64,000 nucleotides of DNA from Curtanaerobium respiraculi (GTDB lineage: Bacteria > Actinomycetota > Coriobacteriia > Coriobacteriales > Eggerthellaceae): contig NZ_JANIPD030000042.1 of assembly GCF_024609215.1 (NCBI RefSeq), forward strand, positions 41,739-105,738, given 5' to 3'. This document shows positions 1-47,703 of this stretch, piece after piece. Each line of letters starts with the position of its first letter. Within the stretch, counting starts at the first letter, position 1. The translations under genes and the position numbers were made by a program. The notes beneath the pieces were generated by a model, which was not told where the DNA came from, did no database searches, and saw only the letters and a program-made list of their open reading frames with translations.

Positions 1-41
1 AGGGCCATCCGAGAAATCGGAGGAAAACGAAAGAAGATCCC

Positions 42-209: not shown

Positions 210-220
210 CTTAACCTGCT

Positions 221-238
221 GGAATTCAATTGAATTCC
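221..238. promoter_or_regulatory. Perfect 18-bp palindrome, operator candidate
   Basis: GGAATTCAATTGAATTCC is a perfect inverted repeat between the possible minus-strand small gene and the plus-strand transporter. Its size and position suit a dimeric repressor site. No flanking T-run supports a terminator. The rest of bases 1-361 shows nothing else I can support. Confidence 0.35.
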
Positions 239-361
239 CAATGATTCACGATGAAGCCAGCTATTCACGCCTCCAGCTATTTCTCTGTGATCCAAAGTGT
301 GACTTAACGGTAAATGAGTCCTTGGTATTCATCTCGGCAGAGCAGATGAGAGGGGTTTGAA

Positions 362-1285: not shown

Positions 1286-1432
1286 CTCTGACATCTGATG
1301 GGGAAGAGCAGTTCTCCGACGTGAACAAATAAATCTAAAAGGTATCGGCAACGGGCACATCTGGACTCCAAAGCAAGTACACCCGTTCATGAAGGCGCAA
1401 TCAATCCGTTTGCTGAGTGGAAGGATCGAATA

Positions 1433-4303: not shown

Positions 4304-4479
4304 CTGGAACTACGTATTGCTAGCGATTATTTGCACTGCGTAAACGCCGATTATACGTAACAGTTCGGAGCTGCGACGGCATTTCATCTCATCGAGGAAT
4401 AGTGCAAAGGGGTGAATGCCGTCGCCTAGAAGGGCATGCGTTGGATGTGTTCGCGGCATAGAAAGGCAGGAGGTATGCA

Positions 4480-6566: not shown

Positions 6567-6644
6567 CTGGGAAAGTGGAAAGTCACTATGTCTATGTTGG
6601 TTGATGAAAGACCGGCCGTTCGCAATGGCTGCGAAAGGAGTGTC

Positions 6645-7610
6645 GTGCCAACTGAACTTCGCAACATGGAAACGACTTCGAATTTCATGCAGATTGGGTC
6701 GGGCAGACATGGTTCGTACGTGACTCTTAATAGCTGCGTACATAAGAATGCGGTCGGATCAGCGCCTTTGCGCAGTTTCGAACCCATAGAGCAACGAGCA
6801 CGTGAAGCGCTCGTTTCAGGACAGGATATCGTAACCGCTCGAATCATCGAGACGAGGGGGTCGGTGCCGCGGCATCGAGGCACGTCGATGCTGCTTGTGG
6901 AAGATGGATCGAAATTCGGTACCGTAGGCGGTGGCCGCATCGAATCGCTCATCGAACGTATATGCCGGGATACGTTTCGCGAACGAGAATCGTGGCATGT
7001 CTACGATGTTGGCGTCAGCTCGCATATCAATGGACAGCGCGACAACAGCGGTGGATCGGTGAAAATCCTTGTCAGATATTACAGCAAGGAGCGCCCGTTC
7101 GAGTACGATGAAATGCCTTTGCCTGTAACCACAGCATACATTTTCGGGTGTGGCCACGTAGGGAGTGCATTGGAGCCTGTTCTTCGGAGTATCGGTTTCG
7201 ATATAGTCATGGTCGACGATCGCGAGAGCATGGTAAGTCGTGACAAATTTCCTTTTGCGACTCAGGTATGGAAGGTTCCTACGCTTGAACATGGATTGGA
7301 TATGGTTGAGCTCAATGAATTCAGCTACGTGTTCCTGATGGGCTACAAACAGGAGAAGAACCTTGGTCTCTTGCGCGCTGCGCTGAAAAAGCCGCACGCT
7401 TATATTGGCTTGCTCGGAAGCCGCCGGAAAGTTGCATCGATCTTTCGGATGTTGGAAGAGGAAGGCATCGACGTCTCCACTGATAAGACCGTTCACGCAC
7501 CAATAGGTGACTACATTAAAGCGGAAACGCCAGCGGAGATTGCAATCAGCATTGCTTCCGAGGTCATACGAGTACGTGCCGAACTTCTGCAGAACGGCTG
7601 CTCGCATTGA
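6645..7610 (+). CDS. XdhC-family molybdenum cofactor insertion protein
   Basis: XdhC-type proteins bind mature molybdenum cofactor, oversee its sulfuration and hand it to the apo-hydroxylase. An N-terminal XdhC/CoxI domain (TRGSVPRHRGTSML and GTVGGGRIES) is followed by a Rossmann domain (FGCGHVGSAL). I chose GTG 6645 because AAAGGAG sits four bases upstream; an in-frame ATG at 6588 would add 19 residues. Where the second XdhC of this window has MACGGEVDI, this one has DNSGGSVKI, so a usually conserved cysteine is replaced. It follows the MocA-YqeB gene on the same strand. The family is certain; full function of the altered motif is not. Confidence 0.87.
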   Translation: MPTELRNMETTSNFMQIGSGRHGSYVTLNSCVHKNAVGSAPLRSFEPIEQRAREALVSGQDIVTARIIETRGSVPRHRGTSMLLVEDGSKFGTVGGGRIESLIERICRDTFRERESWHVYDVGVSSHINGQRDNSGGSVKILVRYYSKERPFEYDEMPLPVTTAYIFGCGHVGSALEPVLRSIGFDIVMVDDRESMVSRDKFPFATQVWKVPTLEHGLDMVELNEFSYVFLMGYKQEKNLGLLRAALKKPHAYIGLLGSRRKVASIFRMLEEEGIDVSTDKTVHAPIGDYIKAETPAEIAISIASEVIRVRAELLQNGCSH

Positions 7611-7707
7611 TTGAGGTCGAATGCGTCTTCACTATACGAAGTGAAAGTTTTCCTCATCGGAGTGAAAATTCATTCCAGTATTCCTGCTAGAGAAGCGATT
7701 GCCGGGG

Positions 7708-9249
7708 CTATTTTTCGTCGATGGTGTAGAACCGATTCATAGCGTCCTCAAGCGTCGTGTAGAACGATTCTGTCTCTTTGTTGTCTTGATACGTTATTAG
7801 GCTGACCACGATCATGACGACGGTCGATGCGAGCAGCCCGATGGTGCCATACCACACGTTGCCCATATCCCATACAGCGTACGTCATAATCACGAGTGCT
7901 GTTCCTACAAGGGTGGCGGCAATCGCTGCCTGTTTAGTTGCATGCTTCCAGTACAATGCGCATACCATGACAGGAAATAGGGGCATTACCAGGGCTATGG
8001 AAAACATGATCAGTGTGAATATCAGCTGTGGGGGATTGATAGCAATCAACGTTGATGTCGTGCCAAGAATGATAATGATGATACGTCCAATAATTTTCTC
8101 GCTTTTTGGGGTGATATTCAGGTGAAATGTGTTTTTCAGCAAATCTGACTCTACGATGGCCGAAGAAACACCTAAAAACGCATTTGCCGTGGAAAGACCG
8201 ACGGCGGTTGCCCCCACGAAGAACGTCAACATCAGGAACACTGCAAGTGGCGGGTTGGCATCGAACACAATGTTGTTGATTAGATAAGGGATTATCAGTT
8301 CGCTTTCGCTGCTGGTCATTCTGTCAACAAGCGCCAAGCCAATAAGCCCTATCAGCATGGTTCCCGTCCATACGAACACCTGTAATACGGGCGTGGCGAA
8401 GGACAACCTGCGCTGAGAATGCAAGCTGTTGCCGAAGTATCCTGATCGAACGAACACGTGCGGCAGCATGATGGTCCAGCCTATTGCGCAGGAAAACGGA
8501 TAGCCGAAACGGAATGCGTACGTGGTTGTGCCTGAAGGTCCCGGGTACGAGAAGAATCCAGCAGTGTTGGGGTTGCGCCAAATCGTTTGCAACGCCTCGT
8601 TGAGAGAGCCATGGAAACCGACGACCAGGCAGGAGATAGCGATGACCCAAAGGGCTGCTATGAAGAACAGTCCTTGAATGGTATCGGCGAACGCGGCGGA
8701 TTTCATACCGCCAATGCATACAAATACGGTCATTGTAATGCCAATGACCACGACGGCATTTGCGTAACTAATGGCTCCGCCTGTCGCATATTGTGCCGCC
8801 TGAGAGATGGCGACGAGCACTGAGGCGATGTACGGAAACGAGCAGGCGAGGAATACCAGTCCGAGTATGGTGCGAAGCGCTGGGCTTTTGAATCGTTCGT
8901 AATAAAAATCGGATGGGGTGATAAGCTTTCGACCTTTTTGCTGATTGTAGGCCCATACCTTGTTCATAGTGAAATGGGAGATTACCGGGAACAGACATAT
9001 GTAACTCAGTTCCGCTACCCAGTAGCCTAACCCGTTGCGGTAATACGCACCAGGGCCGGCAAAGAAAACCCAAGTGCTCATTAATGATGCGAGGTAGGTC
9101 ATGATCAAAACAGGCCAAGGGACAGTGGCGGTAAGCAAATTGCCGCCGTCCTTTCGTTTCCTATCCCGTACAGTGACGTACGCAGCCACGCTCAGGAGAA
9201 AACAAATATAAAGAGCAAATGTTACCCAAATCGTTGTGGAACTCAGCAT
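7708..9249 (-). CDS. Sodium:solute symporter family permease
   Basis: This 513-aa permease has about 13 hydrophobic segments and the overall pattern of the sodium:solute symporter (SSS) family, including the CIGGMKSAAFADTIQG region. It should import an organic solute with sodium across the cytoplasmic membrane. A GGAG precedes the start. It ends the minus-strand group XdhC-small membrane protein-symporter, which converges on the hydroxylase operon. Import of the hydroxylase substrate (for example a purine or aromatic acid) is a reasonable inference, but nothing visible in the sequence fixes the substrate. Confidence 0.9.
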   Translation of the reverse strand: MLSSTTIWVTFALYICFLLSVAAYVTVRDRKRKDGGNLLTATVPWPVLIMTYLASLMSTWVFFAGPGAYYRNGLGYWVAELSYICLFPVISHFTMNKVWAYNQQKGRKLITPSDFYYERFKSPALRTILGLVFLACSFPYIASVLVAISQAAQYATGGAISYANAVVVIGITMTVFVCIGGMKSAAFADTIQGLFFIAALWVIAISCLVVGFHGSLNEALQTIWRNPNTAGFFSYPGPSGTTTYAFRFGYPFSCAIGWTIMLPHVFVRSGYFGNSLHSQRRLSFATPVLQVFVWTGTMLIGLIGLALVDRMTSSESELIIPYLINNIVFDANPPLAVFLMLTFFVGATAVGLSTANAFLGVSSAIVESDLLKNTFHLNITPKSEKIIGRIIIIILGTTSTLIAINPPQLIFTLIMFSIALVMPLFPVMVCALYWKHATKQAAIAATLVGTALVIMTYAVWDMGNVWYGTIGLLASTVVMIVVSLITYQDNKETESFYTTLEDAMNRFYTIDEK

Positions 9250-9332
9250 GGTCTATGCTCCATTACCTTCGCACTCGTGCGCATGTGCTTGTGTTTAAAC
9301 TGAGAAAGAAAACATTGTCTGACCATCAGCAT

Positions 9333-9354
9333 CTACGACATCATGATGTCGTAG
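9333..9354. promoter_or_regulatory. Perfect 22-bp palindrome between small membrane gene and symporter
   Basis: The left arm CTACGACATCA is followed directly by its exact reverse complement. It lies just after the stop of the small membrane protein gene and about 85 bp before the symporter start. With no T-run it is not a classical terminator; an internal operator or an mRNA hairpin setting the two genes' ratio is possible. Confidence 0.4.
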
Positions 9355-9357
9355 CAC

Positions 9358-9579
9358 TTATTTCGCTTTGTGCGGGACCTCGTTGTCCTTTAACTTGTAG
9401 ATACGGCATACTTTCACAAGACCAATGTAAACAGCGGTCCATAACGGGATTATGGTCGCCAAAGCATAGATGATGGTTGGTACAGCCTGGCCGTAGGGAG
9501 GTAGGCCAGGGATATTGAAGACCGCGTACAACACGATAACCGCTGCCAGCCAAATTTTTTCCGTTCTTGTGACTTTCAC
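9358..9579 (-). CDS. Small two-helix membrane protein paired with SSS symporter
   Basis: This 73-aa protein has two hydrophobic helices (about residues 8-25 and 34-56) and a basic, lysine-rich C-terminus. Small two-helix proteins of this kind (DUF3311-like) are often encoded immediately upstream of sodium:solute symporters and are assumed to be accessory subunits. The assignment rests on position, size and hydropathy; I cannot confirm the domain from sequence alone. It lies between XdhC and the symporter in one minus-strand group. Confidence 0.7.
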   Translation of the reverse strand: MKVTRTEKIWLAAVIVLYAVFNIPGLPPYGQAVPTIIYALATIIPLWTAVYIGLVKVCRIYKLKDNEVPHKAK

Positions 9580-9604
9580 AACTATTTATCGAATCGCGCC
9601 CGTG

Positions 9605-10441
9605 TTACAACCGATTGCCATGCCCCGACCGAACCCTAATCATTTGTGCGGCTATGCTAATGGCAATCTCTTCAGGTGTTTCTGCGAAGATTCTTTCTCC
9701 GATGGGTGCATATACGGTTTGCAGTGCATCTTCGCTTACTCCGTCCCGGCGTAGCATATCGAATATGGTTGCAGTTTTCTTATGGCTTCCAATCATGCCT
9801 ATGTAGGCATGATTTTGCTTCAACGCGCTTTTCAAAATGGCGTAGTCTCCTTTATGCCCGCGCGTGACAATGATGATGTAGGTGTTCTCGTCTGTCGTGA
9901 TAGTGCGAAAGCCGTCTTCGTACGAATCGATTACTACCACGTCTTTTGCGTGAGGGAAGCGATCGTGGTTTGCGAATTCTTCTCGATCGTCGAGCACGAT
10001 AATATTGAACCCGATGTAGCGTAAAACCGGGTCAAGCGCTAATCCCACATGCCCCGCTCCAAAGATAAGGGCAGTTTCCTCTAATTGCATAGGCAATTTG
10101 AGTGCATTGGGGTTGTCAGCTGAGTAGTATTCGATAAGGATGTCAACCTCTCCACCGCATGCCATATCCAACGCCTCTGTGTCTAGTCCATCTAGATTGA
10201 AGTGGCAAAGATGGCTTTTTTCCTTGGTCTTGAAGGTCTTCATGCACTCTTCGGTAGTTTTCGCTTCGAGCAAACCGCCACCGACGGTGCCCCAGTTCCT
10301 TCCATCGGCAACGAAGGCCATTGTGGCACCATTGTGGCGCGGCGACGACCTGGCACTCACTGTCTCCACTATCCGCGCGACAACGACGTCGTAACCTTTC
10401 TCCAGCTTCTCGTACGCGCGATACGCGGCGTTGTTCTTCAC
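9605..10441 (-). CDS. XdhC-family protein (second copy)
   Basis: This 278-aa XdhC has the N-terminal XdhC/CoxI domain with GTVGGGLLEAK, the conserved MACGGEVDILIEYY motif with its cysteine, and a C-terminal Rossmann domain (FGAGHVGLAL). The family binds molybdenum cofactor and delivers it to xanthine dehydrogenase-type enzymes. It is first in the minus-strand group with the small membrane protein and symporter, and is divergent from the HTH protein gene. Two XdhC proteins in one cluster, one with and one without the motif cysteine, suggest divided roles. Confidence 0.88.
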   Translation of the reverse strand: MKNNAAYRAYEKLEKGYDVVVARIVETVSARSSPRHNGATMAFVADGRNWGTVGGGLLEAKTTEECMKTFKTKEKSHLCHFNLDGLDTEALDMACGGEVDILIEYYSADNPNALKLPMQLEETALIFGAGHVGLALDPVLRYIGFNIIVLDDREEFANHDRFPHAKDVVVIDSYEDGFRTITTDENTYIIIVTRGHKGDYAILKSALKQNHAYIGMIGSHKKTATIFDMLRRDGVSEDALQTVYAPIGERIFAETPEEIAISIAAQMIRVRSGHGNRL

Positions 10442-10765
10442 TGAGCGCCCCCATCCTTAAGTGAGTTCCTCCTATTGGAATCTAACTATGCCATGAGGTG
10501 GGATCAGGTGAAAACCACGTTCGTATGAAGAAAAAAGATGCCAGTTGAATCAAAAGATGAATTCTTTGTATCCTCTAGGGAACGGCAACTGGTATCAGTG
10601 AGAAGCAGTAGGGGAAATCGCTTACCGATGATTTGCGATGCTGTCTTGGGCTATCGTATCCTCCTGCTTGATATTGGTATATTTTACATCTTGAAGATTT
10701 CAGTAGTGTTTTACGAGCATTGCATCAGGGGTTGCAGAAGTATCTTTTGCTCTTTGAAATAAGGG
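10442..10765. promoter_or_regulatory. Divergent intergenic region, 324 bp
   Basis: This region separates the minus-strand xdhC-symporter group from the plus-strand HTH protein gene, so it must hold both promoters. It is A/T-rich. I see no clear palindrome or riboswitch fold and do not assign promoter elements. Confidence 0.4.
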
Positions 10766-10789
10766 ATGAGCGATAAGGGGGCAAGTGCA

Positions 10790-12172
10790 ATGGGCGCTTT
10801 CGGGAAATGCTGCAAGGAGATAATGAACAAATACGGATTGAAATATCGCATCATCGCAAATGCGGTCGGATACGACGTATCATACATTAGCAAATGGGTT
10901 AATAACGACATACTGCCTGCCGCGGCATCGGCAAGAGACATCTGCTCGCTTATTGCAAAAGTGGCATCCGATTGCGAAGATGGGAATGATGATAAGAAAC
11001 ACGAACAGCATGATAAGTTGTTCCATGACCTGTACAACGCATACGAAGAGGATGAGCAGCGGTCTACGAGAGGTGTTCCCGTTACCGAACGGGGAGTGTT
11101 CGATCGGAAGACGGCCATCTTCGACCGGCTGAAGGATCTCCGCAAGGCAACCGATGTCTGCAAGTTGACAATGTTCGTCGATTTAAAAAATCTGGACAAT
11201 GGTGAGCTTATTTTCCTTATTGACGTCGCCAATTATATCCGCGACTTGCGTTTCGATAGCGGTGGGATTTATGTGCTGCTGCCGGAACTCGGTTTGGACG
11301 GCATCGAGAACGGAAAGACCCTTGTTGCCATTATCAACCTGTTTATGGTCCAATCGCATGTAAAGCTGTATTGCTATTGTGCCCTGGTGTCTCAGTTCGG
11401 CATGGTCTTGTTGAGCGACCAATTCTTATATTCTGCCCAGTGTTGGGCGCATAAGTGCTGGTTGCATGAGGCAATATGCGACGATGTCTCCTTGGCGGTA
11501 AACGCGCTAAATCGAGAAATCATGCCCACGGCGACCGAACTGTTCCATTGCATCCCAATCGGGCATACCGAATCCGTAGAGTGCTCGGACGCTCTTTTTT
11601 GGCGAGCGTACAGCTATCAGTTGCTGGGAGTGTTGGGAACACAGTTCTGCAGCGACGAACTGCTTGCAAACATTACACATAACATGGATGCCGACACGGC
11701 GCAACGATGTGAATCGCAGCGTAATAGCCATGTATGCGCGCTTGATGCAGGCGAGCAGATACAGTGTTTGATCTATGGATACGCGATGCACTCGCTCGTT
11801 TATGATGGGTCCATTTTCGCAGGGGGTAAGTACATCGTGCTCGGCGCACAACAGCGTTTGCAGTATCTTTATGGTATGTGGAATATGATACAGCAATACC
11901 CGAACCTGCAAATCAGGGTAACTGGGGACTATATAGTTCGCGACGTCAAGCATCGTTTTCTTCCTGTTGTTCTATTCGATGCTCGAGGATGCTGTTTTCT
12001 GACATTTCCCGTAGACAAGCAATCGGCTGTCTGCCAAGTGAAGAACAGGGGGTTTCGCAAGTCGATCGAAAACGGGTTCTCCAATCTTTGGAAAGGTGAC
12101 AACCTGACTGTATACGATTTCGAAGAAATGTTTTCCGAGTATCTTGACGAATGTGAAGCGGGTCTGCTGTAG
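10790..12172 (+). CDS. HTH-domain protein, candidate regulator, otherwise unrecognised
   Basis: The N-terminal 60 residues resemble an XRE-like helix-turn-helix (KYRIIANAVGYDVSYISKWV). The remaining 400 residues are cysteine-rich and match no family I know. ATG 10790 is preceded by an AGGGGG at good spacing; ATG 10766 is in frame but lacks a properly spaced site. The gene is divergent from the xdhC-symporter group, so it may regulate the hydroxylase cluster. The large C-terminal part could sense a ligand. Function is inferred from position and HTH only. Confidence 0.65.
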   Translation: MGAFGKCCKEIMNKYGLKYRIIANAVGYDVSYISKWVNNDILPAAASARDICSLIAKVASDCEDGNDDKKHEQHDKLFHDLYNAYEEDEQRSTRGVPVTERGVFDRKTAIFDRLKDLRKATDVCKLTMFVDLKNLDNGELIFLIDVANYIRDLRFDSGGIYVLLPELGLDGIENGKTLVAIINLFMVQSHVKLYCYCALVSQFGMVLLSDQFLYSAQCWAHKCWLHEAICDDVSLAVNALNREIMPTATELFHCIPIGHTESVECSDALFWRAYSYQLLGVLGTQFCSDELLANITHNMDADTAQRCESQRNSHVCALDAGEQIQCLIYGYAMHSLVYDGSIFAGGKYIVLGAQQRLQYLYGMWNMIQQYPNLQIRVTGDYIVRDVKHRFLPVVLFDARGCCFLTFPVDKQSAVCQVKNRGFRKSIENGFSNLWKGDNLTVYDFEEMFSEYLDECEAGLL

Positions 12173-12477
12173 CCATTGACTGTGCACCGAATGTTGATGT
12201 CACTGGCGGTGTTATACGTGGAATGGCCGCTACCTAGAATCGCTGATGGAGGCGAAACGATTCGGTGAAAGGGCAGCGACTACCTTTAGACGCTCTACTC
12301 GAAGATATCTCCGCCCATAAGGTCTGAGACGATCGATATTGACCAGATTCTGCATCGCTAGCTTGAGCTGGTAGTGAACACGATTGTGGACATCTGACCC
12401 GACGAAATCCTTGGCGAGAGCAACTGCCGCGACGACTGCTATGAGCACAACTCTGCTACTATCGTAGGCGAGATAGC

Positions 12478-12511
12478 CATGTTCCACCCCGAAGTTCCGG
12501 GGTGGAACATG
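12478..12511 (+). terminator. Strong hairpin with T-run, Rho-independent terminator
   Basis: Arms CATGTTCCACCCCG and its exact complement pair over 14 bp around a 6-nt loop, followed by TTTT. It lies about 300 bp after the HTH protein gene and could end that transcript. An unusually long perfect stem could also be a relic of the mobile element debris that follows. Confidence 0.65.
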
Positions 12512-12708
12512 TTTTCCTGACGAGTTAAGCGAGCTGTACTCCCGCGCCGACCATACAGTGATTGTCATCGTAAAAAAGTCTAGATTCTAGATGCGGGGAT
12601 TACCCATGCACCGGGTCGACAATGCAACCGACGTACTCAAACCTGTAAGCCTCAGCACGTTGCGCGCGGTACTTGGGACTGATCCTCGAATAGCAAGACA
12701 AAGTCAAA

Positions 12709-13033
12709 ATGAACGCGCTCACGCGTCTCGACTTTCCGTACGAGCAACCACATTTACCTGCACTCAACAATATTCAGACGCGCGTCAGCGAGGAGATAGG
12801 ACATTGCAGCAAGGTGATCGGGATGTTCCAGTCCTTTAAGAGCTGATGCGGCCAGTCGGTTCGGTGCCAATCAGAGTGAATGGAGAATGGATCGATGAGT
12901 TTCATAGTTGCTGGCGCGCTCAAGGATATTGCACGCAAGAGCGAGGGTGCGAAGCCGCTCGAAACCGAAAGTCGCCGAGAAAGCCGAGGCGTTCATCCTC
13001 ACGGCGATTGAGCTCAAGAGAAGGATTGCGTGA
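12709..13033 (+). pseudogene. IS256-family transposase C-terminal remnant
   Basis: Three successive frames spell a degraded mutator-type transposase end. Frame one reads LDFPYEQ, then NNIQTRVSEEI and VIGMFQSFKS, matching the family's NN-x-QxR-x-x-EI and VFPS-KS blocks. After a frameshift near 12843 it reads LMRPVGSV with GEW. After another shift near 12970 it reads PKVAEKAEAFILTAIELK and stops at 13033. The N-terminal two thirds are absent. With the IS110 remnant that follows, it marks the edge of the A/T-rich island. Bases 12173-12708 and 13034-13578 hold no gene I can support apart from the terminator. Confidence 0.68.
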
Positions 13034-13578
13034 TGTGTGCGATAGGAATCCTGGCCACGGTCGCTGCCACGGACTGTGCGTACTTTTGTTCGCTCAGGGC
13101 GTGTCCCGAGAAGCCCTGTTGCTAAGATTTGACGTATTACGCGAAGCGGAGCGCCTGGATTCTTTCGTCGCAGCTGTCCAGGCCAAGTGTATTTCGCTAT
13201 GGCTTCATATCTCATGACGACACTACCTAGTTATCTCGTGGTAACCAATGTTTAACCAGACCGGTCACTGGCTTCAATGAAGCTGACGTTCTTATTACCT
13301 TATGGTTTGAGAATTCAGTTGATGTCATTTGATTCATAATGATGCATGGATTTCATGGCCCTCTTCTTCCCCGAGGCATTCAAAATGCACAGAAGTTAAA
13401 AACATCCGTCATCTTCAATCCGTCAGAGCCATCGTCCGTCATTTGAGGCTTGCATTTTTAAATCAAGGGGTAATCCCGAGATTATCAAAAAGAACCTTGA
13501 GAAGTGAACATGGGATAAAGGGCACGCATGCTGGCACTGCCCTAGACATGAGTTCGTGCCGACGCTTATGCAGTTGTT

Positions 13579-13869
13579 CTAATCGGCTTGCCCGATCTCT
13601 TTGAGATGGCCCGGCCGGTGGTTTCCCGGCAGGGCCGGCTCGTACGGCCTGCCCTCCTTCATGAGCCCGAGGCACACGCCCATCAGCTTGCGTGCCGCGC
13701 CGGAGAAGACGACGTAGTGGTGTTTTTTGTCAACCCTCTTCTTCTTGTCGTAGTAGTCGCCGAAGTAGGGGTCGTGCCCGCGAACGCTGTCCGCGGCCTG
13801 CATGAACGCCCGCTTGGCTCGAGGCCGAAGGTCCCCTCTGGTCTCCACAGGCGTAACCTCATTAGACAT
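13579..13869 (-). pseudogene. IS110-family transposase C-terminal remnant
   Basis: A 96-residue frame carries the C-terminal part of an IS110/IS116-type transposase: [24 protein letters not shown] and a [13 protein letters not shown] block close to the end. The N-terminal RuvC-like catalytic part and most of the insertion sequence are missing, so it is not active. Base composition has already changed here to the high GC of the following core region. No terminal repeats are visible. Confidence 0.7.
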
Positions 13870-14067
13870 CCATCGCCGGACGACATCCTGCCTAATCCAC
13901 GTCCGCCTGCGGGCCAGAGGCGCCTGCCTTTCTCGAAGAGCCGAACTTCTGGAACGAACACCAAGTGCCCTCCACCCATGCATGCCCTTTATCCCATATT
14001 TGCATTTATGGGAAAAGAGCGCGGCCGCTGCGCGAGAAGCGGCAGAAAGAATATAGGAGGAAAAATC

Positions 14068-33609: not shown

Positions 33610-35642
33610 CGCGCGCCGCCTTCCATCAGGTCGATACGGTACAACCGCATGTCGTCCTCGCTCTTCACCAGCGTGAAACCGGGCGTATCGGGGGTGATCG
33701 ACTCGATGCCCGCCCAGTCCTTCTCCTTGTAGCGCAGGCCCGTGGTGGTGCGATGGTCGCCCGAAAGGTCGTCGAGCATCAGCACATACGTTGCGCCGCA
33801 ATCGCGGACCGCCTGCTGGACCTCCTCCGACGTGGCGATATCGCACAGCTTCGTCCTCAGCAGCGCGCTCTGCTGCTCGCCGCCCACTCCCCCGTCTTTG
33901 TACGTGCGGTGGAAGTACGTGTGAAGGCCTTCGACCCCGTAGGTCCAGCAGCTTCCGTCGCTGGGCACGTTCACCACCAGGGAATCGCGCGGGATCTCGC
34001 TCATCACCTGCTTGATGAACTCATCCTCCTCGCGCGTGAGAAGCCTATCCCATCTGTAGCGCCAGTCGATTTGCTGATGCGCCTTCACCAGGCCGAAGCG
34101 GACATCAGACCCGCCAACCTTGAAATGCGCCGGGACGAACTGCCCGCCGACGACGAGAACGGCCACCGCCGCGGCGACGACGGCGCTTCTCCGCGCATCC
34201 CATCGCGAGGGGTTCCTGCCCTTCGCCCATGCGGACAGCTTATCGATCAGCCATGCGCAGCCCATCGCCGCGAGGGGGATGGAGAACAGGGCGCACATGG
34301 CCCCGGTGCGGAAGTAGTCGGTATACCAGAAACCGGTGAGAAAATGCTTCGGCAGCCCTTCCGTGCACATATCGACGATGACGAGCACGAGCGAGAAGGC
34401 GTATGCGACGGTGAGCCAGAGGTATCGACGATCCTTGAACGTGCGCAGGACGCCGACGAGGACGAGGAGGCTCAGAATGGGCTGGATGCCCATACGGCCC
34501 GTGAACATATACAGCAGGGCGGCGGGAACCGCCTTCGGGGGAGCGGCGAGCGCCCTCCAATTCACTGCGATGACCCCGCTGAACACGGGGGAGAAGTACG
34601 AGGCGACCCAGACTCCTATCGCAACCGCCGCCACTGCCACGGCAAGCCCGACCCGCTTCGCGGACACGACGGGCCGCATGGCGCCGGGAGCGTAGAACGC
34701 GCGGGAGACGAGGAAGGCGACCGACCAGATGCCCAGCGTGAACGCCCCGTTCGGCTGGCTCGCCACCACCACGGCAAGGCCTGCGGCGGCCAGCGCCGCC
34801 CCGCGGATCCGCTCTGGCAGCGTGCGCGCATCGACTGCGGACACCACGAAGGCGAAGACGATGGGGAGGAAGGCGAACGACACCATGTTCGGCAACAGCT
34901 GGCCGTAGAGGATGAACCCCCAGGGGAACGCGCAGAATGCCACCGATACGAAAGACCCCGCGCGCACGATCGCGCGATCGCCGCGGAACAGCACATGCAG
35001 CAGCAGGCATACGCCGAGGGGCACGACGAACGCGGTGAAGGCAACGATCGCGGCGTTCGAGGCGAGGACCGCGTCCGCCCCGAAGAGCGAGGCGACCACG
35101 GCAGCCACCACATTCCATACGGCGGGATAGAACGTGCCGGGCGCTCCCTGCGCCAGGTAGCTGCTGACGTTGAGCACCGAATAGCTCCCCGTCTCCACGA
35201 AGCTGCGGATAACGGACAGGTGGAACGTGGTGTCGTCGCAACGGCTGAACGCATCGGGCGTGCGGATTCCATGCACGAACACGATGGACGTGATAAGCAG
35301 CGCCACGGCGACGTACAGCGCGGCGGTGCGCCGCAGGTACCGAGCATCCTCGGATGGATGCCGCACGGCCGCCGGCTCCGCGCCGCCCCGCCGCGCAGAC
35401 GCCGCGCGCGCAAGGAGCCATGCCGCGGCGCACAGGGCAAACGAGGCCGCAGCGAGGATCGCGCCGCTCACCCGCACTCCCGCGGCATCGAAGGCGACCC
35501 CCAGAACGACCAACGCCCCGGTGCCGAAGAGAGGAGCCGATGCCGCGGCGGCGAGCGCGTCCAATCGCGCAGCACGCGCCACGAAGATGCCGGGCACGTA
35601 GAGCACCGCCAGGCAGGCGAGCGTCGCAACTATGAGAATCAT
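33606..35642 (-). CDS. DUF6541-like polytopic membrane protein, GT-C-type layout
   Basis: This 678-aa protein has about 14 hydrophobic helices and a soluble C-terminal domain of about 200 residues. The large loop after the second helix group (CDDTTFHLSVIRSFVETG) is typical of DUF6541 and related GT-C glycosyltransferases, where acidic residues near the first loop catalyse transfer from a lipid-linked sugar. It is translationally coupled to the YfhO-family gene, so the pair probably decorates a cell-surface glycan together. Confidence 0.75.
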   Translation of the reverse strand: MILIVATLACLAVLYVPGIFVARAARLDALAAAASAPLFGTGALVVLGVAFDAAGVRVSGAILAAASFALCAAAWLLARAASARRGGAEPAAVRHPSEDARYLRRTAALYVAVALLITSIVFVHGIRTPDAFSRCDDTTFHLSVIRSFVETGSYSVLNVSSYLAQGAPGTFYPAVWNVVAAVVASLFGADAVLASNAAIVAFTAFVVPLGVCLLLHVLFRGDRAIVRAGSFVSVAFCAFPWGFILYGQLLPNMVSFAFLPIVFAFVVSAVDARTLPERIRGAALAAAGLAVVVASQPNGAFTLGIWSVAFLVSRAFYAPGAMRPVVSAKRVGLAVAVAAVAIGVWVASYFSPVFSGVIAVNWRALAAPPKAVPAALLYMFTGRMGIQPILSLLVLVGVLRTFKDRRYLWLTVAYAFSLVLVIVDMCTEGLPKHFLTGFWYTDYFRTGAMCALFSIPLAAMGCAWLIDKLSAWAKGRNPSRWDARRSAVVAAAVAVLVVGGQFVPAHFKVGGSDVRFGLVKAHQQIDWRYRWDRLLTREEDEFIKQVMSEIPRDSLVVNVPSDGSCWTYGVEGLHTYFHRTYKDGGVGGEQQSALLRTKLCDIATSEEVQQAVRDCGATYVLMLDDLSGDHRTTTGLRYKEKDWAGIESITPDTPGFTLVKSEDDMRLYRIDLMEGGAR

Positions 35643-39552: not shown

Positions 39553-40560
39553 TCACGCTTCCTTCTTCGCCTTGATCGCAGCGGTGAGGGCGGGCACGAC
39601 CTCGAACATGTCGCCGACGATACCGTAATCGCACGCCTTGAAGATGGGCGCGTTGGGATCGCTGTTGATGGCGATGATGCGGTCGGAGCCGCTGATGCCG
39701 GCCATATGCTGGATGGCGCCCGAGATGCCCACGGCGATGTAGACCTTCGGACCTACGCTCTTGCCGGTCTGCCCGACTTGCCGCGCCGGCACGGCCCAAC
39801 CGCTTTCGACGGCGGCGCGGGAGGCGCCCATGCTGGCATCCAGCACGTCGGCCAGCTCGCGCAGCAGCGCGAACCCCTTCTCGCCGTGCGTGCCGCGTCC
39901 GCCGGACACGATGAATTCCGCCCCCTCGAGGTCCTTGCCCTCGGCATTCTCCTCGGGGAAGAAATCGATCAGCTGGGTGCGGATCGTGGCGGGATCCACA
40001 TGGAATTCCTCGCGGATGACGGTCGCCTTCCCCTCCACAGGGTCCGTCGCCTTGAACACGCCCGGGCGCACGGTTCCCATTTGCGGGCGGCTGTCGGGGC
40101 ACAGGATGGTCGCCAGCAGGTTGCCGCCGAACGTCGGGCGCGTCCACGCCACGTTGCCGGTTTCCTCGTCGATGCCCAGCTCGGTGCAATCGGCGGTGAG
40201 GCCGGTCTGCAGGCGGCATGCCACGCGGGGGGCGAAATCGCGCCCCGTGTCGGTCGCGCCCACCATGACGGTGGTCGGGCCGTATTTCGTGATCAGGTGG
40301 CACAGCGCCTGATCGTATGCATCGGTGGTGAACTGACGGTACTCCGGTCCCTCCACGACGATGATCTCATCGGCGCCATGAGCATTCGCTGCCTCGATGG
40401 CGGACTCCACGCCGTCCCCGATGATAACCGCGACAAGTTTGCCGCCTTGCTTCGCCGCAAGCTCGCCACCTGGATTCAGCAGCTCGATTCCGACTGGCTT
40501 CGCAGCGCCTTCCTCATCCGTTTCGATGAACACCCACAGGTCCTTGGTTTTCGTTTCCAT
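39553..40560 (-). CDS. etfA: Electron transfer flavoprotein alpha subunit
   Basis: EtfA binds FAD and passes electrons between acyl-CoA or other dehydrogenases and a quinone or ferredoxin partner. The 335-aa chain has the C-terminal FAD domain with [29 protein letters not shown] and [11 protein letters not shown]. Sequences [13 protein letters not shown] and [13 protein letters not shown] resemble those of clostridial electron-bifurcating Etfs, so bifurcation is possible. It lies 11 bp after etfB and downstream of an SDR gene. Confidence 0.95.
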
Positions 40561-40571
40561 GCGAGTCCCTC

Positions 40572-41378
40572 CTAAAATGCCCCTGCGGCGGACAGCATAT
40601 CGGCCAGTTTCTGGGCGTTCGCCTGCGCAGAGCCTTCGTCGATCATCTCCGCGTTGGTCTTGACCTCGGCGGTGCGGGTCCTGCGCACTTTGGTGGGAGA
40701 GCCCTTCAGGCCGGTATGGGCACGGTCGAGGCTCTCCAGGTCATCGGCAACCACCTGCCGGATCTCGGCATGCTTCGCGGCGAGCTTGCGCCTGATCGTG
40801 GGCGGGCGCACCGCGAACGTCGGCTTCGAGAACGTGACCACGCAGGGGAGCTGCACCCCGATCACCGCGATGCCGTCCTCGCGCTGCTTGCTCACCTTCA
40901 GCGTATCGCCCGCCAATTCGCAGGCGAGCCCGCATGTGACCTGGGGCCAACCGAGATGCTCGGCCATTTCGGGCCCCACCTGCGCGGTGTCGCCGTCGAT
41001 GGCCTGCTTGCCGCAGAAAATCATGTCGAATTTCGCTCCGGTATCGGCCTCGATCTTCTTCACGACCTCCGAGAGGATATAGCTCGTGGCGAACGTGTCC
41101 GACCCGCCGAACACGCGATCGGTCGCGAGATATGCATCGTCCGCGGCGATCTCCATGCATTCGCGCAGTGCGGCGGTCGCCTGCGGCGGCCCCATGGTCA
41201 GCACGGAGATCTTGGCCTCGGGATGGGAATCCTTGATGCGCGCGGCTGCCTCGAGCGCGTACTTGTCGAAGGTGTTCACGATGCTGGGCACGCCCTTGCG
41301 GATAAGCGTGTTCTTGACCGGGTCGATTTTGATCTCGGTCGTATCCGGTACTTGTTTGACGCAGACGAGAATGTTCAT
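40572..41378 (-). CDS. etfB: Electron transfer flavoprotein beta subunit
   Basis: EtfB (268 aa) forms the heterodimer with EtfA and binds AMP or the second FAD. It begins MNILVCVKQVPDTTEIKID and has the DGDTAQVGPEMAEHLG motif of the nucleotide-binding loop. GAGG stands before ATG 41378. It lies between the SDR gene (99 bp upstream) and etfA, so all three are probably one transcript feeding electrons from a dehydrogenase. Confidence 0.95.
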   Translation of the reverse strand: MNILVCVKQVPDTTEIKIDPVKNTLIRKGVPSIVNTFDKYALEAAARIKDSHPEAKISVLTMGPPQATAALRECMEIAADDAYLATDRVFGGSDTFATSYILSEVVKKIEADTGAKFDMIFCGKQAIDGDTAQVGPEMAEHLGWPQVTCGLACELAGDTLKVSKQREDGIAVIGVQLPCVVTFSKPTFAVRPPTIRRKLAAKHAEIRQVVADDLESLDRAHTGLKGSPTKVRRTRTAEVKTNAEMIDEGSAQANAQKLADMLSAAGAF

Positions 41379-41477
41379 AGTGCCTCGCTTTCGATTCCCT
41401 TGCATGTATCGTGAGGTGCGATGCGCTCGCGCCCGAAGTCGGGCGGCAGCAAGCATGCCGCCCGAGCATGTACCCGT

Positions 41478-42320
41478 TTACACGGCGGTGTAACCGCCAT
41501 CGATGGCGATCGCAGCACCGGTGATGAACTGGGCGTCGTCGGAAACGAGGAAGTTGATGAGCTTGGCGACCTCTTCCGCCTCGCCGAGGCGCTTCATGGG
41601 ATGGAGCTCGCTGTACAGCTTGCGGTTCTCCTCGTCGATGAGCGGCGTCTTGATCACACCCGGGCACACGGCGTTCACGCGGATGCCCTCAGGAGCGTAC
41701 ATGGTGCCCGCCGCGCGCGTCATCTGGACAACGCCGCCCTTGCTGGCGCTATAGGCGACATTGTTGGGTACGGCGACCAGGCCGAACATGCTGGCGAGAT
41801 TGACGATGGCGCCGCCCGTCCCCTGCTTGAGCATCTGCTTGATGGCCCACTTGTCGGTGATCATCACCCCGGTGAAGTCCACGCCGTTGACTTTATTCCA
41901 ATTCTCCAGCGTCTCGGTGGCAACGGGATTGTTGTCCCCGCCGATGCCCGCGGAAGCGACGCAGATATCCAGCTTGCCGTAGGTGTCGACAGCAAGCTTG
42001 ACCGCAGCCTGCACATCCTCTTCCTTCGCAACGTTCGCACGGACGCCGGTCGCGCCGATCTCCTTGGCGACGTCCAGCACCTTGGGGCTGTAGTCCGCGA
42101 TGACAACTTGGGCGCCGTTCGCTATGAAGAGCTTGGCGGCCGCAAGGCCCAAACCGCTCGCTCCGCCGGTGATGAGGGCAACTTTATCGGTGAGGTCCCC
42201 CAGAAGGGCGGATTGCGTGGCAACGGGGCTGCCGGCAAGGACCTTCGCCGCCTCCAATCCCAGACCGCTCGCGTTGTCGTGAACCAATTCTTCGGGGCTT
42301 TCGAACTCGACTTCTGCCAT
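41478..42320 (-). CDS. SDR-family oxidoreductase with duplicated N-terminal motif
   Basis: This 280-aa short-chain dehydrogenase has the cofactor loop TGGASGLG (residues 51-58), an NLAS serine region and YSASKGG catalytic Tyr/Lys. A 45-residue N-terminal extension contains ASGLGLEAAKVLA (17-29), nearly copying the genuine ASGLGLAAAKLF (54-65). AGGAGG precedes the ATG. It heads the SDR-etfB-etfA group, so it may oxidise a hydroxy compound or support Etf-linked beta-oxidation-type chemistry; substrate is not fixed. Confidence 0.9.
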   Translation of the reverse strand: MAEVEFESPEELVHDNASGLGLEAAKVLAGSPVATQSALLGDLTDKVALITGGASGLGLAAAKLFIANGAQVVIADYSPKVLDVAKEIGATGVRANVAKEEDVQAAVKLAVDTYGKLDICVASAGIGGDNNPVATETLENWNKVNGVDFTGVMITDKWAIKQMLKQGTGGAIVNLASMFGLVAVPNNVAYSASKGGVVQMTRAAGTMYAPEGIRVNAVCPGVIKTPLIDEENRKLYSELHPMKRLGEAEEVAKLINFLVSDDAQFITGAAIAIDGGYTAV

Positions 42321-43406: not shown

Positions 43407-43704
43407 GTCAGTCTCTCTCTTCCCGCGCTCTCGCGCCCGCGCTCCCGCGCAATCGTTTCCACCGCTCCCGCGGTGCATTTCAAAAGCCGCAACCTTGCGG
43501 CAGCCGGGAATCCATGCGCCCGGCACTGGGGGGATAAAAGCCAAAGGCTCAGGTCCGCCCCGGCAATCGAGCGAACGGTCTCGTTCGCTGGCTCGATTCT
43601 ACGTGGCGGCGGGAAACCTCCCCGCCGGAAACCCCTAGACTCCTCAAATGAAACATCGGATTGCGGTACCATGCACACAAAGCACGCACACGTTAGGAGC
43701 GTCC

Positions 43705-44643
43705 ATGCCCGCCATCATCACGCACGATCTCTTCGGCCGCGATTTCCACCAGCGCGCTCCCCAGCTCGTCGGTTCCGGAAAGGACGAGCGCCTCGCCTTC
43801 CTCCTCGGCAACCAGGGGCCCGATCCGCTTTTTTACGCGGTCGCCGATTTCCGCATCCGGCAATGGGCGCATGCGGGCACCGTGATGCACCAGCAGAACT
43901 CCGCCGCGCTCCTTGCGGCGCTTCCCCACGCAGTCGCCGCCCTTCCGCCGACCGATCGCGCCGTCGGCCGGGCGTGGGCCCATGGATTCATGTGCCATTA
44001 CGCGCTCGACAGCACGATGCATCCCTTGGTGCACGCGATCGTCTACGCGCTCTGCGACGCGGGCGTCCAGGGGTTCTCGCGGCAAGACGCCTCGATGGTG
44101 CACGGTGTGGTGGAAAGCGATCTCGACGAGATGGCGCTTTCCGTCAAAAAGGGGGTGACGGTGCGCGAGTTCAAGCCCTACGAGCGCATCCTCCGAGGCG
44201 ACGCCGTCCTGCTCGATGCTTGCTCGTCCCTGTTCAGCACGCTGGCGCGCCGCGCCTTCGGATATGCGATGCCGAGGGGAACCTATGCGGACGCCGTGCG
44301 GGCGTTCCGGCGCGTGCAGCGATTCCTCTACGCGCCGGGCGAGACGAAAAGGAGGCTCGTCAAACGGGCGGAGCAAAGGCTCACGCACGGCTATTCCCGC
44401 TACGACGCCATGGCCCATCGCGCGATACTGCACGAGCGGAGCGATTTCGACAACGAGGAGCATGTCCCGTGGATCAACCCCTTCACCGGCGCGCAGAGCG
44501 ATGCGAGCTTTTGGGACCTCTACCGTCGCGCCCTCGGGCGGGCGGAAGAGGCCGTTCGCGCGATGGATAAACCGGGATTCGATGTCGAGGCAGCGCTGGG
44601 GCTAACCGGCGGCATCAACTTCAGCGGGAGAATCGCGGACTAG
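43705..44643 (+). CDS. Zinc-dependent phospholipase C family-like protein
   Basis: This 312-aa protein has histidines at the positions expected in the bacterial zinc-dependent phospholipase C-like family: an N-terminal ITHDLFG, GNQGPDPLFY, and HGFMCHYALDSTMHPLVH in a helical bundle. There is no signal peptide, so it is intracellular, unlike secreted phospholipases. TTAGGAG precedes ATG 43705. It lies 37 bp before the dehydratase gene on the same strand and may be co-transcribed. Its substrate is unknown. Confidence 0.8.
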   Translation: MPAIITHDLFGRDFHQRAPQLVGSGKDERLAFLLGNQGPDPLFYAVADFRIRQWAHAGTVMHQQNSAALLAALPHAVAALPPTDRAVGRAWAHGFMCHYALDSTMHPLVHAIVYALCDAGVQGFSRQDASMVHGVVESDLDEMALSVKKGVTVREFKPYERILRGDAVLLDACSSLFSTLARRAFGYAMPRGTYADAVRAFRRVQRFLYAPGETKRRLVKRAEQRLTHGYSRYDAMAHRAILHERSDFDNEEHVPWINPFTGAQSDASFWDLYRRALGRAEEAVRAMDKPGFDVEAALGLTGGINFSGRIAD

Positions 44644-44680
44644 GGGTAACCCCGAAACCCGCCGGAGTATACTTCCCGCC

Positions 44681-45988
44681 ATGGACGTGATACGGACATT
44701 CGGCAACATCATAGACTCCCAAGTGGGCAGCCACCCGCTCCGCGCGCGGCGTATCCTCTATGCCGGATGGCGCGCACAGCTGGCGAATCTCACCGTTCAC
44801 GCCGATAAGCGGCTTCCGGCGGCGCGGCGATATGCCGCCCGCGTGGCGATGGGCAAGATCACCCGAGCTCTGAAGCACCCCGAGAAAGCCGCCGCTATCA
44901 GCTTGTTCACGCCGTACGAGCCCCTTCAGACGACGGGCGTCCTACCCTATTCGGTCGAGCAGCTCTCGTGCTTCATCGGCGGCTCGGATGCTGAGAGCGC
45001 CTTCCTCGAGGCGGCCGCGCAAGCCGGGTTCGCCGACACCATGTGCTCGTACCACCGCATCTTCCTCGGCGCGGCGGCGAGCGGCCTGCTCCCCCGGCCC
45101 GCGTTCTGCGTGTACACATCGCTTGCCTGCGATGGGAACCTGATCACCTTCCCCTCCGTGCAGGACCATTTCGACATCCCCGGCTTCTGCCTGGACGTCC
45201 CCTTCGAGCGTAGCGACGATGCCGTCGGCTACGTCGCGCAGGAGATCCGGGATCTCGTGCGGTTCGTGGAGGGTTGCATCGGGCAGGCGATCGACGAATC
45301 CGCCCTGCGTGAAACCGTCGCCCGGGGCTGGCGCAGTGCGCTAGGCTACCGGCGGTTCCTCGACGCCTCGCCCGGACGGCGCCTGCCGGCCGACATGACG
45401 AGTGAGATGTACGCGATCCTCACCAACCACGTGCTCATGGGGTCCCCCGAAACCGAGCGCTTCTGCAGCATGTTGGCGGACGATATGGAATCCGCCCCCG
45501 CAAGCGATGGCTTGCGGCTGCTGTGGCTGCACACCATGCCGTTCTCGCAGGAGCCCTTGATCGAGCGGCTGAATTTCAACGACGACGTGTTCATCACCGC
45601 CAACGACCTCGCCGCCGACCCGATGCTCATCGACGTCGACCCGGACAGGCCCTACGAGGCGATGGCGCGGCGGCTCGTGTATTCCTGCTACAACGGTCCC
45701 GCCAGCGCGCGCACCGAGCGGGCGCTCGACATGGCACGGCGCACGCAGGCGGAGGGCGCCGTGCTCTTCAACCATTGGGGATGCCGCGCGACGCTGGGCG
45801 CGTCGCAGCTTATCAAACAGGATCTGGAGGAAGCGGGGCTGCCCTGCCTGGTGCTGGACGGCGACGGTGCCGACCCCGCGAACCGGAGCGACGGCCAAAC
45901 CAGCACGCGATTCGACGCCTTCATCGAGCTCCTCGGCGCCAAGCGGGAAGAGCGCGCCGGCGCGGCGGACGAGGGGAGCGCCCGGTGA
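44681..45988 (+). CDS. 2-hydroxyacyl-CoA dehydratase family subunit (HgdB-like)
   Basis: This 435-aa protein matches the D-component fold of 2-hydroxyacyl-CoA dehydratases: FTPYEPLQTTGVLPYS at the start of the catalytic region, cysteines in MCSYHR and LACDGN, and GFCLDVPF. These cysteines normally bind an oxygen-sensitive [4Fe-4S] cluster used for radical dehydration after reduction by an ATP-driven activase. Its TGA overlaps the GTG of the next gene, so the two are coupled subunits. No CoA transferase is nearby, so the substrate is open, and a double-cubane-type reductase is an alternative. Confidence 0.85.
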   Translation: MDVIRTFGNIIDSQVGSHPLRARRILYAGWRAQLANLTVHADKRLPAARRYAARVAMGKITRALKHPEKAAAISLFTPYEPLQTTGVLPYSVEQLSCFIGGSDAESAFLEAAAQAGFADTMCSYHRIFLGAAASGLLPRPAFCVYTSLACDGNLITFPSVQDHFDIPGFCLDVPFERSDDAVGYVAQEIRDLVRFVEGCIGQAIDESALRETVARGWRSALGYRRFLDASPGRRLPADMTSEMYAILTNHVLMGSPETERFCSMLADDMESAPASDGLRLLWLHTMPFSQEPLIERLNFNDDVFITANDLAADPMLIDVDPDRPYEAMARRLVYSCYNGPASARTERALDMARRTQAEGAVLFNHWGCRATLGASQLIKQDLEEAGLPCLVLDGDGADPANRSDGQTSTRFDAFIELLGAKREERAGAADEGSAR

Positions 45989-47652
45989 GAACGGTCTGCA
46001 AATACACGCCGAACGAGCTGTTCGCGGGATTCGGCACGACCTGCACCGTGCTCGATGGGATGGCGCACGATCTCGACGAGTCGGATTCGATGGCCCATGC
46101 CAACCTCTGCGGATTCGGCAAGACCCTCATCCAAACCTCGCTCCGAGGCGAGGCGGAGCCGCTGCTGCTGGTGAACTGCTGCGACACGATGCGGCGCGCC
46201 TACGACGTCATCGTGCATGCCGTAACGGGTCCCGGAGGCGGGAAGAGGCCGTTCACCTACCTCATGGAACTCCCCCATACCTGCAGCCCCTGCCAGATCG
46301 AGGCGTTCGCCCACGAGCTCAAGCACCTCAAGGACGCCTACGCCCGGGCAACCGGGCTGACCTTCGACCTTGCCGCCTGCCAGGCCGCCTTCGCGCCCCG
46401 CCATGCAATCGAGGAACCCTACGTGGGCATCATGGGGGTGCGTTGCGGCCGCGAGCTCGAGCAGTTCATCCGCCGCACGTTCGACATGCCCGTCACCAAC
46501 CTCACCTGCACGGGCAACCGTTCGCCGCATATGGATTCCGCCGCGCTGGAAACCGATGACGAGGACGCGTTCTTCGCCGCGTACGCCCAGGCTCTTCTGG
46601 GGCAGATCCCCTGCATGCGCATGCATGACACGACCGGCAGGCGGGCGCTCTTCGAAGATCCGCGGCTCCGGGCGGTGATTTACCATTGCATGAAGTTCTG
46701 CGACTTCTACGGACCTGAATACGCCCAGTTCAAACGCCATTCATCCCTCCCCCTGCTTCGAATCGAGTCTGATTTCACCTTGCAAAGCTCCGAACAGCTG
46801 CACACGCGCATCGAGGCGTTCGCGGAAACCATCGCCCCGAAAAAGGACGCTTCAGCCCCGAAGGCGCGCTCGAGCGGAACGACCTACGTCGCCGGGATCG
46901 ACAGCGGGTCGACAAGCACCGATGTCGTCATATTGGACGAGATGGGCGCCGTGGTCGCTTCCGCTATCATCCCCACCGGGGGCGGAGCGCAGAAGAGCGC
47001 CGAGGAATGCCTTTCGCACGCGCTTGCGCAGGCGGGCATATCCCGCACGGCGATCCGCTCCGTCGTTTCGACCGGATATGGCCGCTCCTATATCGACGAG
47101 GGGGATGATTCCGTCACGGAGATCACCTGCCATGCCAAAGGAGCCCATTCGATCGACCCCTCGGTGCGCACCATCATCGACATCGGCGGCCAGGACAGCA
47201 AAGTCATCCGCATCGACAACGCGGGCAACGTCCAGGACTTCGCGATGAACGATAAATGCGCTGCGGGAACGGGGCGCTTCCTGGAGATGATGGCGCGCGC
47301 CCTGGATCTGCCGCTCGAAGAGATGAGCCGCATGGGCGTCGACCACAAGGAGGACATCGTCATCTCCAGCATGTGCTCGGTCTTCGCCGAATCCGAGGTG
47401 GTCAACCTGGTTGCCCAGAACCGCGCCATCCCCGACATCGTCTGGGGCATCGACAATTCCGTCGCGAACAAGATCGGCACGCTCGTCCGGCGCGTGGGAG
47501 GACGGGAATCCTACATGATGACGGGAGGCGTGGCTCAGAACGCGGGCGTCGTTCGCGCGATCGAGCGGAAGCTCGGTTGCAAAGTGCACGTAAGCGAAAG
47601 CGCGCAACTCTGCGGCGCCCTCGGCGCAGCCCTCTTCGCGCTCGAACGATAA
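45985..47652 (+). CDS. 2-hydroxyacyl-CoA dehydratase subunit fused to its CoA-activase
   Basis: This 555-aa fusion has an N-terminal dehydratase subunit (about 1-285, cysteines in TTCTV, NLCGFG and NCCDTMRR) and a C-terminal BadF/BadG/HgdC-type ATPase activase (about 300-555). The activase has the ASKHA phosphate loop GIDSGSTSTD and cluster cysteines Cys425 (KCAAGTG) and Cys464 (SSMCSVF), spaced 39 residues as in HgdC. Normally the activase is a separate homodimer; here each dimer would carry two dehydratase subunits. GTG start 45985 overlaps the upstream stop. A terminator follows. Confidence 0.88.
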   Translation: MRTVCKYTPNELFAGFGTTCTVLDGMAHDLDESDSMAHANLCGFGKTLIQTSLRGEAEPLLLVNCCDTMRRAYDVIVHAVTGPGGGKRPFTYLMELPHTCSPCQIEAFAHELKHLKDAYARATGLTFDLAACQAAFAPRHAIEEPYVGIMGVRCGRELEQFIRRTFDMPVTNLTCTGNRSPHMDSAALETDDEDAFFAAYAQALLGQIPCMRMHDTTGRRALFEDPRLRAVIYHCMKFCDFYGPEYAQFKRHSSLPLLRIESDFTLQSSEQLHTRIEAFAETIAPKKDASAPKARSSGTTYVAGIDSGSTSTDVVILDEMGAVVASAIIPTGGGAQKSAEECLSHALAQAGISRTAIRSVVSTGYGRSYIDEGDDSVTEITCHAKGAHSIDPSVRTIIDIGGQDSKVIRIDNAGNVQDFAMNDKCAAGTGRFLEMMARALDLPLEEMSRMGVDHKEDIVISSMCSVFAESEVVNLVAQNRAIPDIVWGIDNSVANKIGTLVRRVGGRESYMMTGGVAQNAGVVRAIERKLGCKVHVSESAQLCGALGAALFALER

Positions 47653-47681
47653 CTCCCGGACAGGCTGCGGCGTGCGGGGCG

Positions 47682-47703
47682 CAAGGCTGCGGCCTTGTTT
47701 TTT
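47682..47703 (+). terminator. Rho-independent terminator of dehydratase operon
   Basis: CAAGGC and GCCTTG form a 6-bp stem around TGCG, followed by six T residues. It lies 30 bp after the activase-fusion stop. Confidence 0.75.

Follow-up and report, generated by a model that had tools for sequence, protein, structure and literature searches.

A fused activase and predicted double-cubane subunit in Curtanaerobium respiraculi: a probable ATP-driven reductase of the benzoyl-CoA reductase / 2-hydroxyacyl-CoA dehydratase superfamily

The activases of the superfamily of benzoyl-coenzyme A (CoA) reductases, 2-hydroxyacyl-CoA dehydratases and double-cubane proteins are treated as separate, mostly transient partners. 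Why is such an activase tethered to an enzyme subunit in Curtanaerobium respiraculi, and which kind of reaction would the product catalyse? The question is raised by two genes of the stretch analysed here (the window, i.e., 64,000 nucleotides of contig NZ_JANIPD030000042.1, positions 41,739 to 105,738). They encode a subunit, B, and a chain, A-ACT, made of a second subunit (A) and an activase domain (ACT). It is concluded that B and A-ACT probably form an ATP-driven radical reductase of this superfamily (probability of about 0.6), whose cluster identity, reaction and substrate we infer.

Both genes lie on the forward strand. B (open reading frame 44681-45988, 435 residues) is an HGD-D subunit with a predicted catalytic [4Fe-4S] cluster (BzdO/HadB type); its Pfam match to PF06050 (HGD-D) reaches 192.5 bits for a cut-off of 28.4. 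A-ACT (open reading frame 45985-47652, 555 residues) runs from a GTG start at 45985 to a stop codon at 47650-47652. No stop codon separates A from ACT in this single frame, and the one chain matches both HGD-D (113.6 bits) and BcrAD_BadFG (PF01869; 198.7 bits, cut-off 31.5). It comprises (i) the A domain (residues 1-283, 45985-46833), a putative shortened double-cubane subunit of BzdN/DCCP type, with Cys5, 42, 66, 175, 210 and 239; (ii) a linker (46834-46887) of about 18 residues as drawn, or 22 when measured between motifs; (iii) ACT (residues 302-555, 46888-47649), a complete HgdC-type ATP-dependent activase with Cys425 and Cys464. Residues are numbered from the GTG; the query P0002 began two codons upstream, and its numbers are higher by 2. 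ACT scores 240.5 bits against TIGR00241 (cut-off 125.4), and its profile matches include MbdQ (237 bits) and the activator of 2-hydroxyisocaproyl-CoA dehydratase (229.9 bits). Cys425 and Cys464 are 39 residues apart and both occur in 50 of the 51 ACT rows, the 51st ending before them; ACT has the cysteine spacing of HgdC-type activases and passes the cut-offs of both TIGR00241 and PF01869.

A preliminary description of the locus had reported the tether and the 39-residue spacing, and both are borne out. It had also described the other subunit as translationally coupled: the start of A-ACT and the stop of B do overlap by four nucleotides (GTGA, 45985-45988, read in the DNA), and the coupling itself is likely. 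The start that it gave, 43705, is an ATG inside a phospholipase C (PLC)-like frame (43648-44643).

The A-domain profile was searched against 396 genomes of the window's class, a match being defined by E <= 1e-15 and a strong match by E < 1e-30. Matches were obtained in 128 genomes, 52 of them strong and 76 weak (E of 4.7e-24 or worse). The strong ones belong to 29 genera, five families and one order; we tentatively take the class to be Coriobacteriia, and Eggerthellaceae and Atopobiaceae to be families concerned. When the loci of all 52 genomes (window included) are compared, the domain order of the window, for which the preliminary description had proposed a search, is found again: A and ACT share a single open frame in 50 of them, although the contig ends inside ACT in two of these. 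As for the two exceptions, the contig of locus L043 ends before ACT, and in L122 (genome G323) A is spread over two frames, the 3' half being fused to ACT. Since 50 of 52 genomes show it, the fusion is not due to chance. In a tree from which 9 near-copies and 2 cut sequences had been removed beforehand, 40 fused ACT domains, compared with 19 separate activases, fall on one side of one branch (support 99/98). Because they form one clade, a single fusion event probably lies behind them. A lost stop codon, which the preliminary description had named as a possible refutation, and an assembly artefact are ruled out by these two results together. The linker could be measured between two fixed motifs in 44 of 51 sequences, where it has 21 to 102 residues with a median of 26; the other 7 lack a motif.

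A further refutation would have been a stand-alone activase always encoded nearby. An activase frame without an A domain is found near the module in only 2 of 32 stretches: in L044 (287 residues, beside an HGD-D frame on the other strand) and in L168, where it is a frame of 1345 residues. Very long frames with two activase domains are a separate observation: they have 1353 and 1637 residues on contigs C14 (L055) and C7 (L056) of the window's genome (G000), and are also found in 6 of the 8 further genomes in which activases were sought.

Outside the class the sampling is thin, Bacillota and Desulfobacterota not having been surveyed as groups. In a sample of 198 genomes of the phylum, two A genes were found beyond the class, both unfused, and a further look at the family with such genes gave four of 15. 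None of 16 loci from a wider contig scan (few peptides, not exhaustive) has A and ACT in one open reading frame by profile. Among plasmids, A had no protein match, and a yjiL gene gave a single short match at 82%. The literature searched describes no such fusion; this is a weak negative, most subscription papers, including two on the double-cubane protein (DCCP), being outside the coverage.

Which clusters may the two subunits carry? According to PMC11971306, the [8Fe-9S] ligands of BzdN are Cys36/73/100/263/293/327 and the catalytic [4Fe-4S] ligands of BzdO are Cys95/128/380. By profile alignment the first six pair with Cys5/42/66/175/210/239 of A, and the other three with Cys122 (45044-45046), Cys150 (45128-45130) and Cys368 (45782-45784) of B, which are the predicted ligands. 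Counting residues on the aligned chains gives back the published numbers, with the sole mismatch that Cys150 (HadB Cys117) faces the neighbour of Cys128 in the Cys128/129 doublet. In A, 51 of 52 rows have Cys5, 42, 65 and 66 (the 52nd being the split L122) and all 52 have Cys175, 210 and 239. In B, Cys368 is present in 51 of 51 rows, while Cys122, Cys150 and Glu93 (44957-44959; aligned to the acid/base position Glu55 of HadB) are each present in 50 of 51, the remaining row being cut (for Cys122 and Cys150 this is L138, at the end of the fetched stretch). A comparison of A with eight unfused A-like proteins (one unassigned, the others of Desulfobacterota-type, Desulfitobacteriaceae or Verrucomicrobia) leaves only the six expected ligands as invariant cysteines, Cys65 being excluded. 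Partial A-like frames in L064, L070 and L071 were omitted from these comparisons; an alignment that combined fused with separate chains placed A rows wrongly on ACT and was not used. The guess of the preliminary description, i.e., repeated electron firing as in double-cubane reductases, gains support from the six cysteines.

The same six-plus-three pattern occurs in unfused sisters. In L059 (Desulfobacterales) the genes are separate, in the order A, B, ACT; in L145 and L146, from a different class of the phylum, A and B are found with no activase within the 16-kb stretch. We infer that a heterodimer with a six-cysteine subunit came first and that the fusion followed, with the gene order changed to B then A-ACT. 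The unfused sisters offer a likely ancestral state for comparison.

The tests of family membership lead to the following observations: (i) against the NCBIfam models, bzdN gives 19.4 bits for A-ACT and 19.7 for B (cut-off 453.8), bzdO 56.8 (448.6) and bzdQ 170.4 (380.2); (ii) the double-cubane family NF040772 gives 60.4 bits for A-ACT and 45 for B (cut-off 350); (iii) a six-cysteine, double-cubane subunit and a three-cysteine catalytic subunit, as in Bzd enzymes, are both found at the level of sequence, whereas the heterodimeric Bzd activase is replaced by one fused activase; (iv) B keeps three cysteines, whereas DCCP is described as a homodimer in which each subunit holds a double cubane. No other family appeared near A or B in the fold lists, an absence that is not evidence. 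By these tests the module, although its mode of action would resemble that of BzdNO/BzdPQ and DCCP/DCCP-R, belongs to neither the Bzd nor the DCCP family and is placed as a new variant of the superfamily, probably a BzdNO-like reductase with its ATP-driven injector fused to the predicted electron-storage subunit.

A dehydratase recycles its electron and one activator can serve many enzymes, whereas a reductase spends electrons at every turnover. A fixed injector would be favoured when the electron is spent per turnover rather than once per many turnovers. In the mechanism proposed, two chains would bring their ACT domains together around a single [4Fe-4S] cluster, and every stroke driven by ATP would deliver a low-potential electron to the double cubane in A. 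The latter would store electrons and hand them to the open-site (water-bound) [4Fe-4S] cluster of B, where a bound substrate, which is most likely a CoA thioester, would be reduced, Glu93 serving as acid/base. A role in electron transfer and storage has been proposed for the double cubane of BzdN (PMC11971306).

The stoichiometry can be compared with that of solved complexes. The 3 entries of DCCP with its reductase (DCCP:DCCP-R) together contain 12 chains of either partner. For MbdONPQ, P and Q are present in 10 chains each (3 entries), N and O in 11 chains each (4 entries). In these activase:enzyme complexes there are as many activase chains as HGD-D chains, whereas the B.A-ACT unit has one activase per two HGD-D domains. 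Because the unit is one activase short, the assembly expected would be either (B.A-ACT)2 sharing one activase dimer, or (A-ACT)2 acting as a charger for separate B subunits.

The distribution of B bears on this choice. B lies upstream of A-ACT on the same strand in 51 of the 52 strong-A loci, its stop codon ending 9 to 169 nucleotides before the codon for Cys5 of A (49 loci measured). In the exception, G276, the B gene is elsewhere in the genome. B is found in 54 of the 396 genomes, i.e., the same 52 plus G305, where it is a fragment at a contig end, and G045, where it runs to the contig end and A-ACT may be missing from the assembly. Two B genes accompany one strong A in 11 of these 54 genomes, in tandem in four (including G297) and dispersed in seven; A-ACT may therefore be a shared electron charger for several B subunits. 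The seven dispersed B genes and the lone unlinked one of G276 form one clade, which also holds the A-linked B of G026 (100/100). Two cases call for caution. In G297 (L138/L148) the B copy adjoining A-ACT is missing its middle part and with it, by profile position, two of the three ligand cysteines; an intact B lies just upstream of it. In G227 the contig ends less than 20 bases from the second B, which leaves room for a second A-ACT. Around the dispersed copies (B2) are found a putative ABC-type protein, an Mbeg1-like protein, a nitroreductase, an Fe-type alcohol dehydrogenase and an ArsR-type regulator, none of which names a substrate. It is tentatively proposed that A-ACT is a self-contained, one-chain, ATP-driven super-reductant (activase plus [8Fe-9S] capacitor), which would charge interchangeable catalytic subunits, adjacent, tandem or dispersed. 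The literature searched holds no description of such a plug-in radical reductase platform for this superfamily.

The same data can be read in a rather different way, with (A-ACT)2 as a double-cubane protein with a built-in reductase (DCCP and DCCP-R in one chain), which would reduce small molecules itself or charge a separate B, the latter being a client only. The two B genes beside one strong A, the clade of eight unlinked B loci and the genome (G276) whose only B is unlinked all fit this explanation; moreover, A alone has DCCP as its top PDB profile match (93.2 bits) and A-ACT matches the equal chain numbers of the DCCP:DCCP-R entries. On the other hand, the position of B just upstream of A-ACT in nearly all loci suggests a fixed complex, part of the middle domain is missing from A, and the counts of B are weakened by the contig end of G227 and by the internally shortened second B of G297. 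This reading is considered rather unlikely.

The preliminary description had named the locus a radical dehydratase. According to this alternative, a 2-hydroxyacyl-CoA dehydratase would have a tethered activase, one electron would start a ketyl-radical dehydration and be recycled, and the tether would only speed re-activation. Two adjacent HGD-D genes, as in 2-hydroxyacyl-CoA dehydratases (HAD), are indeed present, B and A both matching PF06050. However, according to PMC11971306 and PMC11574389 the subunits of HadC type carry a three-cysteine cluster, whereas A keeps all six double-cubane cysteines, i.e., it is no three-cysteine second subunit free of double-cubane ligands. The HAD equivalog models (HadB/HadC, NCBIfam) give 38.4 bits for a cut-off of 750 (HAD alpha) and 23.2 for a cut-off of 700, and a dehydratase would have little need for one activase per enzyme. 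A dehydratase is thus improbable, and the name is probably wrong.

That the fused ACT pairs with a separate activase, as BzdP does with BzdQ, rather than with itself is highly improbable: class I benzoyl-CoA reductases do use two different activase subunits (MbdP/MbdQ; BzdPQ), and separate activases exist in the window's genome (252 residues), G029 and G010, but among the 8 genomes searched no separate HgdC-sized activase passes the Pfam cut-off in G038, G173 or G276, and that of the window's genome adjoins a DCCP-like gene in a selenium-type locus. As regards this genome, DCCP-like HGD-D genes are found at L053 (12148-16269, contig C18) and L054 (304-4083, contig C20), one with its own separate activase; they adjoin Se/S carrier-like, sulphur-transport, TusA-like and class-V aminotransferase genes. 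The set resembles the selenium gene set of Slackia (PMC5322559, Table 1), which suggests a selenium role for this DCCP.

Several points weigh against an ATP-driven radical reductase made of B and A-ACT. Cysteine patterns predict clusters and do not prove them. About 55 residues of the middle domain are missing from A, so docking may differ from that of BzdN, and the model of A is of moderate confidence (predicted local distance difference test score, pLDDT, of 72.9). At the position of the catalytic His131 of BzdO, B has no His but Gly152 (hidden Markov model alignment) or Asn153 (by spacing, with Cys150 paired with Cys128), the latter being Asn in 51 of 51 rows; conversely, His125 of B has no counterpart in BzdO. 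Because of these two differences, the module is no benzoyl-CoA reductase in detail. The distribution is patchy: a strong A is absent from 344 of the 396 genomes, including G001, the sole other genome of the window's genus searched. Finally, no conserved neighbour names a substrate, whether in 12 or then in 32 stretches.

The neighbours shared by the 32 stretches are an M16C (PreP-like) peptidase (18 stretches; sequence clustering, Pfam on two), NrdD (6; clustering, Pfam on one) and a nitroreductase (6; clustering, Pfam on one), and they are read as local gene order. In L044, L047 and L051 the module is followed at a short distance by genes for NrdD, an anaerobic ribonucleotide reductase, and for a radical-SAM activase-like protein (identified with Pfam in L044, by clustering in the others). 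The PLC-like frame (PF00882, 32.1 bits, cut-off 26.8), which the preliminary description had left unexplained beside the module, matched none of 31 loci (L042-L072), among which are 11 module-bearing ones; the module loci obtained afterwards (L103-L171) were outside that query. On the basis of these 11 copies, a part in the system is not supported and was rejected. Just 3' of A-ACT a terminator-like hairpin with a T-run (47681-47698, forward strand) was found by consensus scan only; the region holds 4 such hairpins for 3.3 expected, shuffles giving a similar frequency.

Other features of the window are as follows. Genes for electron transfer flavoprotein (ETF) alpha and beta lie beside a short-chain dehydrogenase at 39553-42320, on the strand opposite to the module; the nearest models, acryloyl-CoA reductase ETF and EtfB, are below cut-off. 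Positions 1-14000 have a G+C content of 0.49-0.54, below most of the remainder, and are possibly acquired; they contain genes for a molybdenum hydroxylase (1433-4303), a MobA-like protein (5184-6566) and a sodium:solute symporter (7708-9249). At 34139-34238 ARAGORN gives an odd tRNA with a four-base anticodon (ggga), which overlaps long open reading frames and may be a false call.

Fusing the activase to the predicted double-cubane subunit fixes their stoichiometry, so that the ATP cost per electron and the order of electron loading would be measurable without docking unknowns. In at least 29 of the genera sampled, the module indicates a low-potential reaction that is as yet unassigned; comparing the several types of B offers a handle on the residues that set substrate choice.

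How does the module compare with known systems? As in BzdNO/BzdPQ and MbdONPQ, a six-cysteine and a three-cysteine subunit are recognized by sequence, together with an ATP-driven activase of the same family. In contrast to BzdNO/BzdPQ, the activase is single and fused, A is about 55 residues shorter and the equivalent of His131 is lacking; unlike in the Bzd and Mbd systems, no aromatic pathway gene occurs among the conserved neighbours scanned. With DCCP/DCCP-R it shares the six cysteines of A and the activase type, but only three of these cysteines are present in B, and its activase is fused, whereas DCCP-R is separate. HadBC and its activator are likewise an HGD-D heterodimer with an HgdC-type activator, and B keeps the position of Glu55; they differ in the three-cysteine cluster of HadC and in having the activator as a protein of its own. 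Lastly, methanogenesis marker 15 (TIGR03286) matches P0002 over residues 252-554 with 142.5 bits, below its cut-off of 455.75, and this match extends about 50 residues upstream of the activase, into the end of the HGD-D domain.

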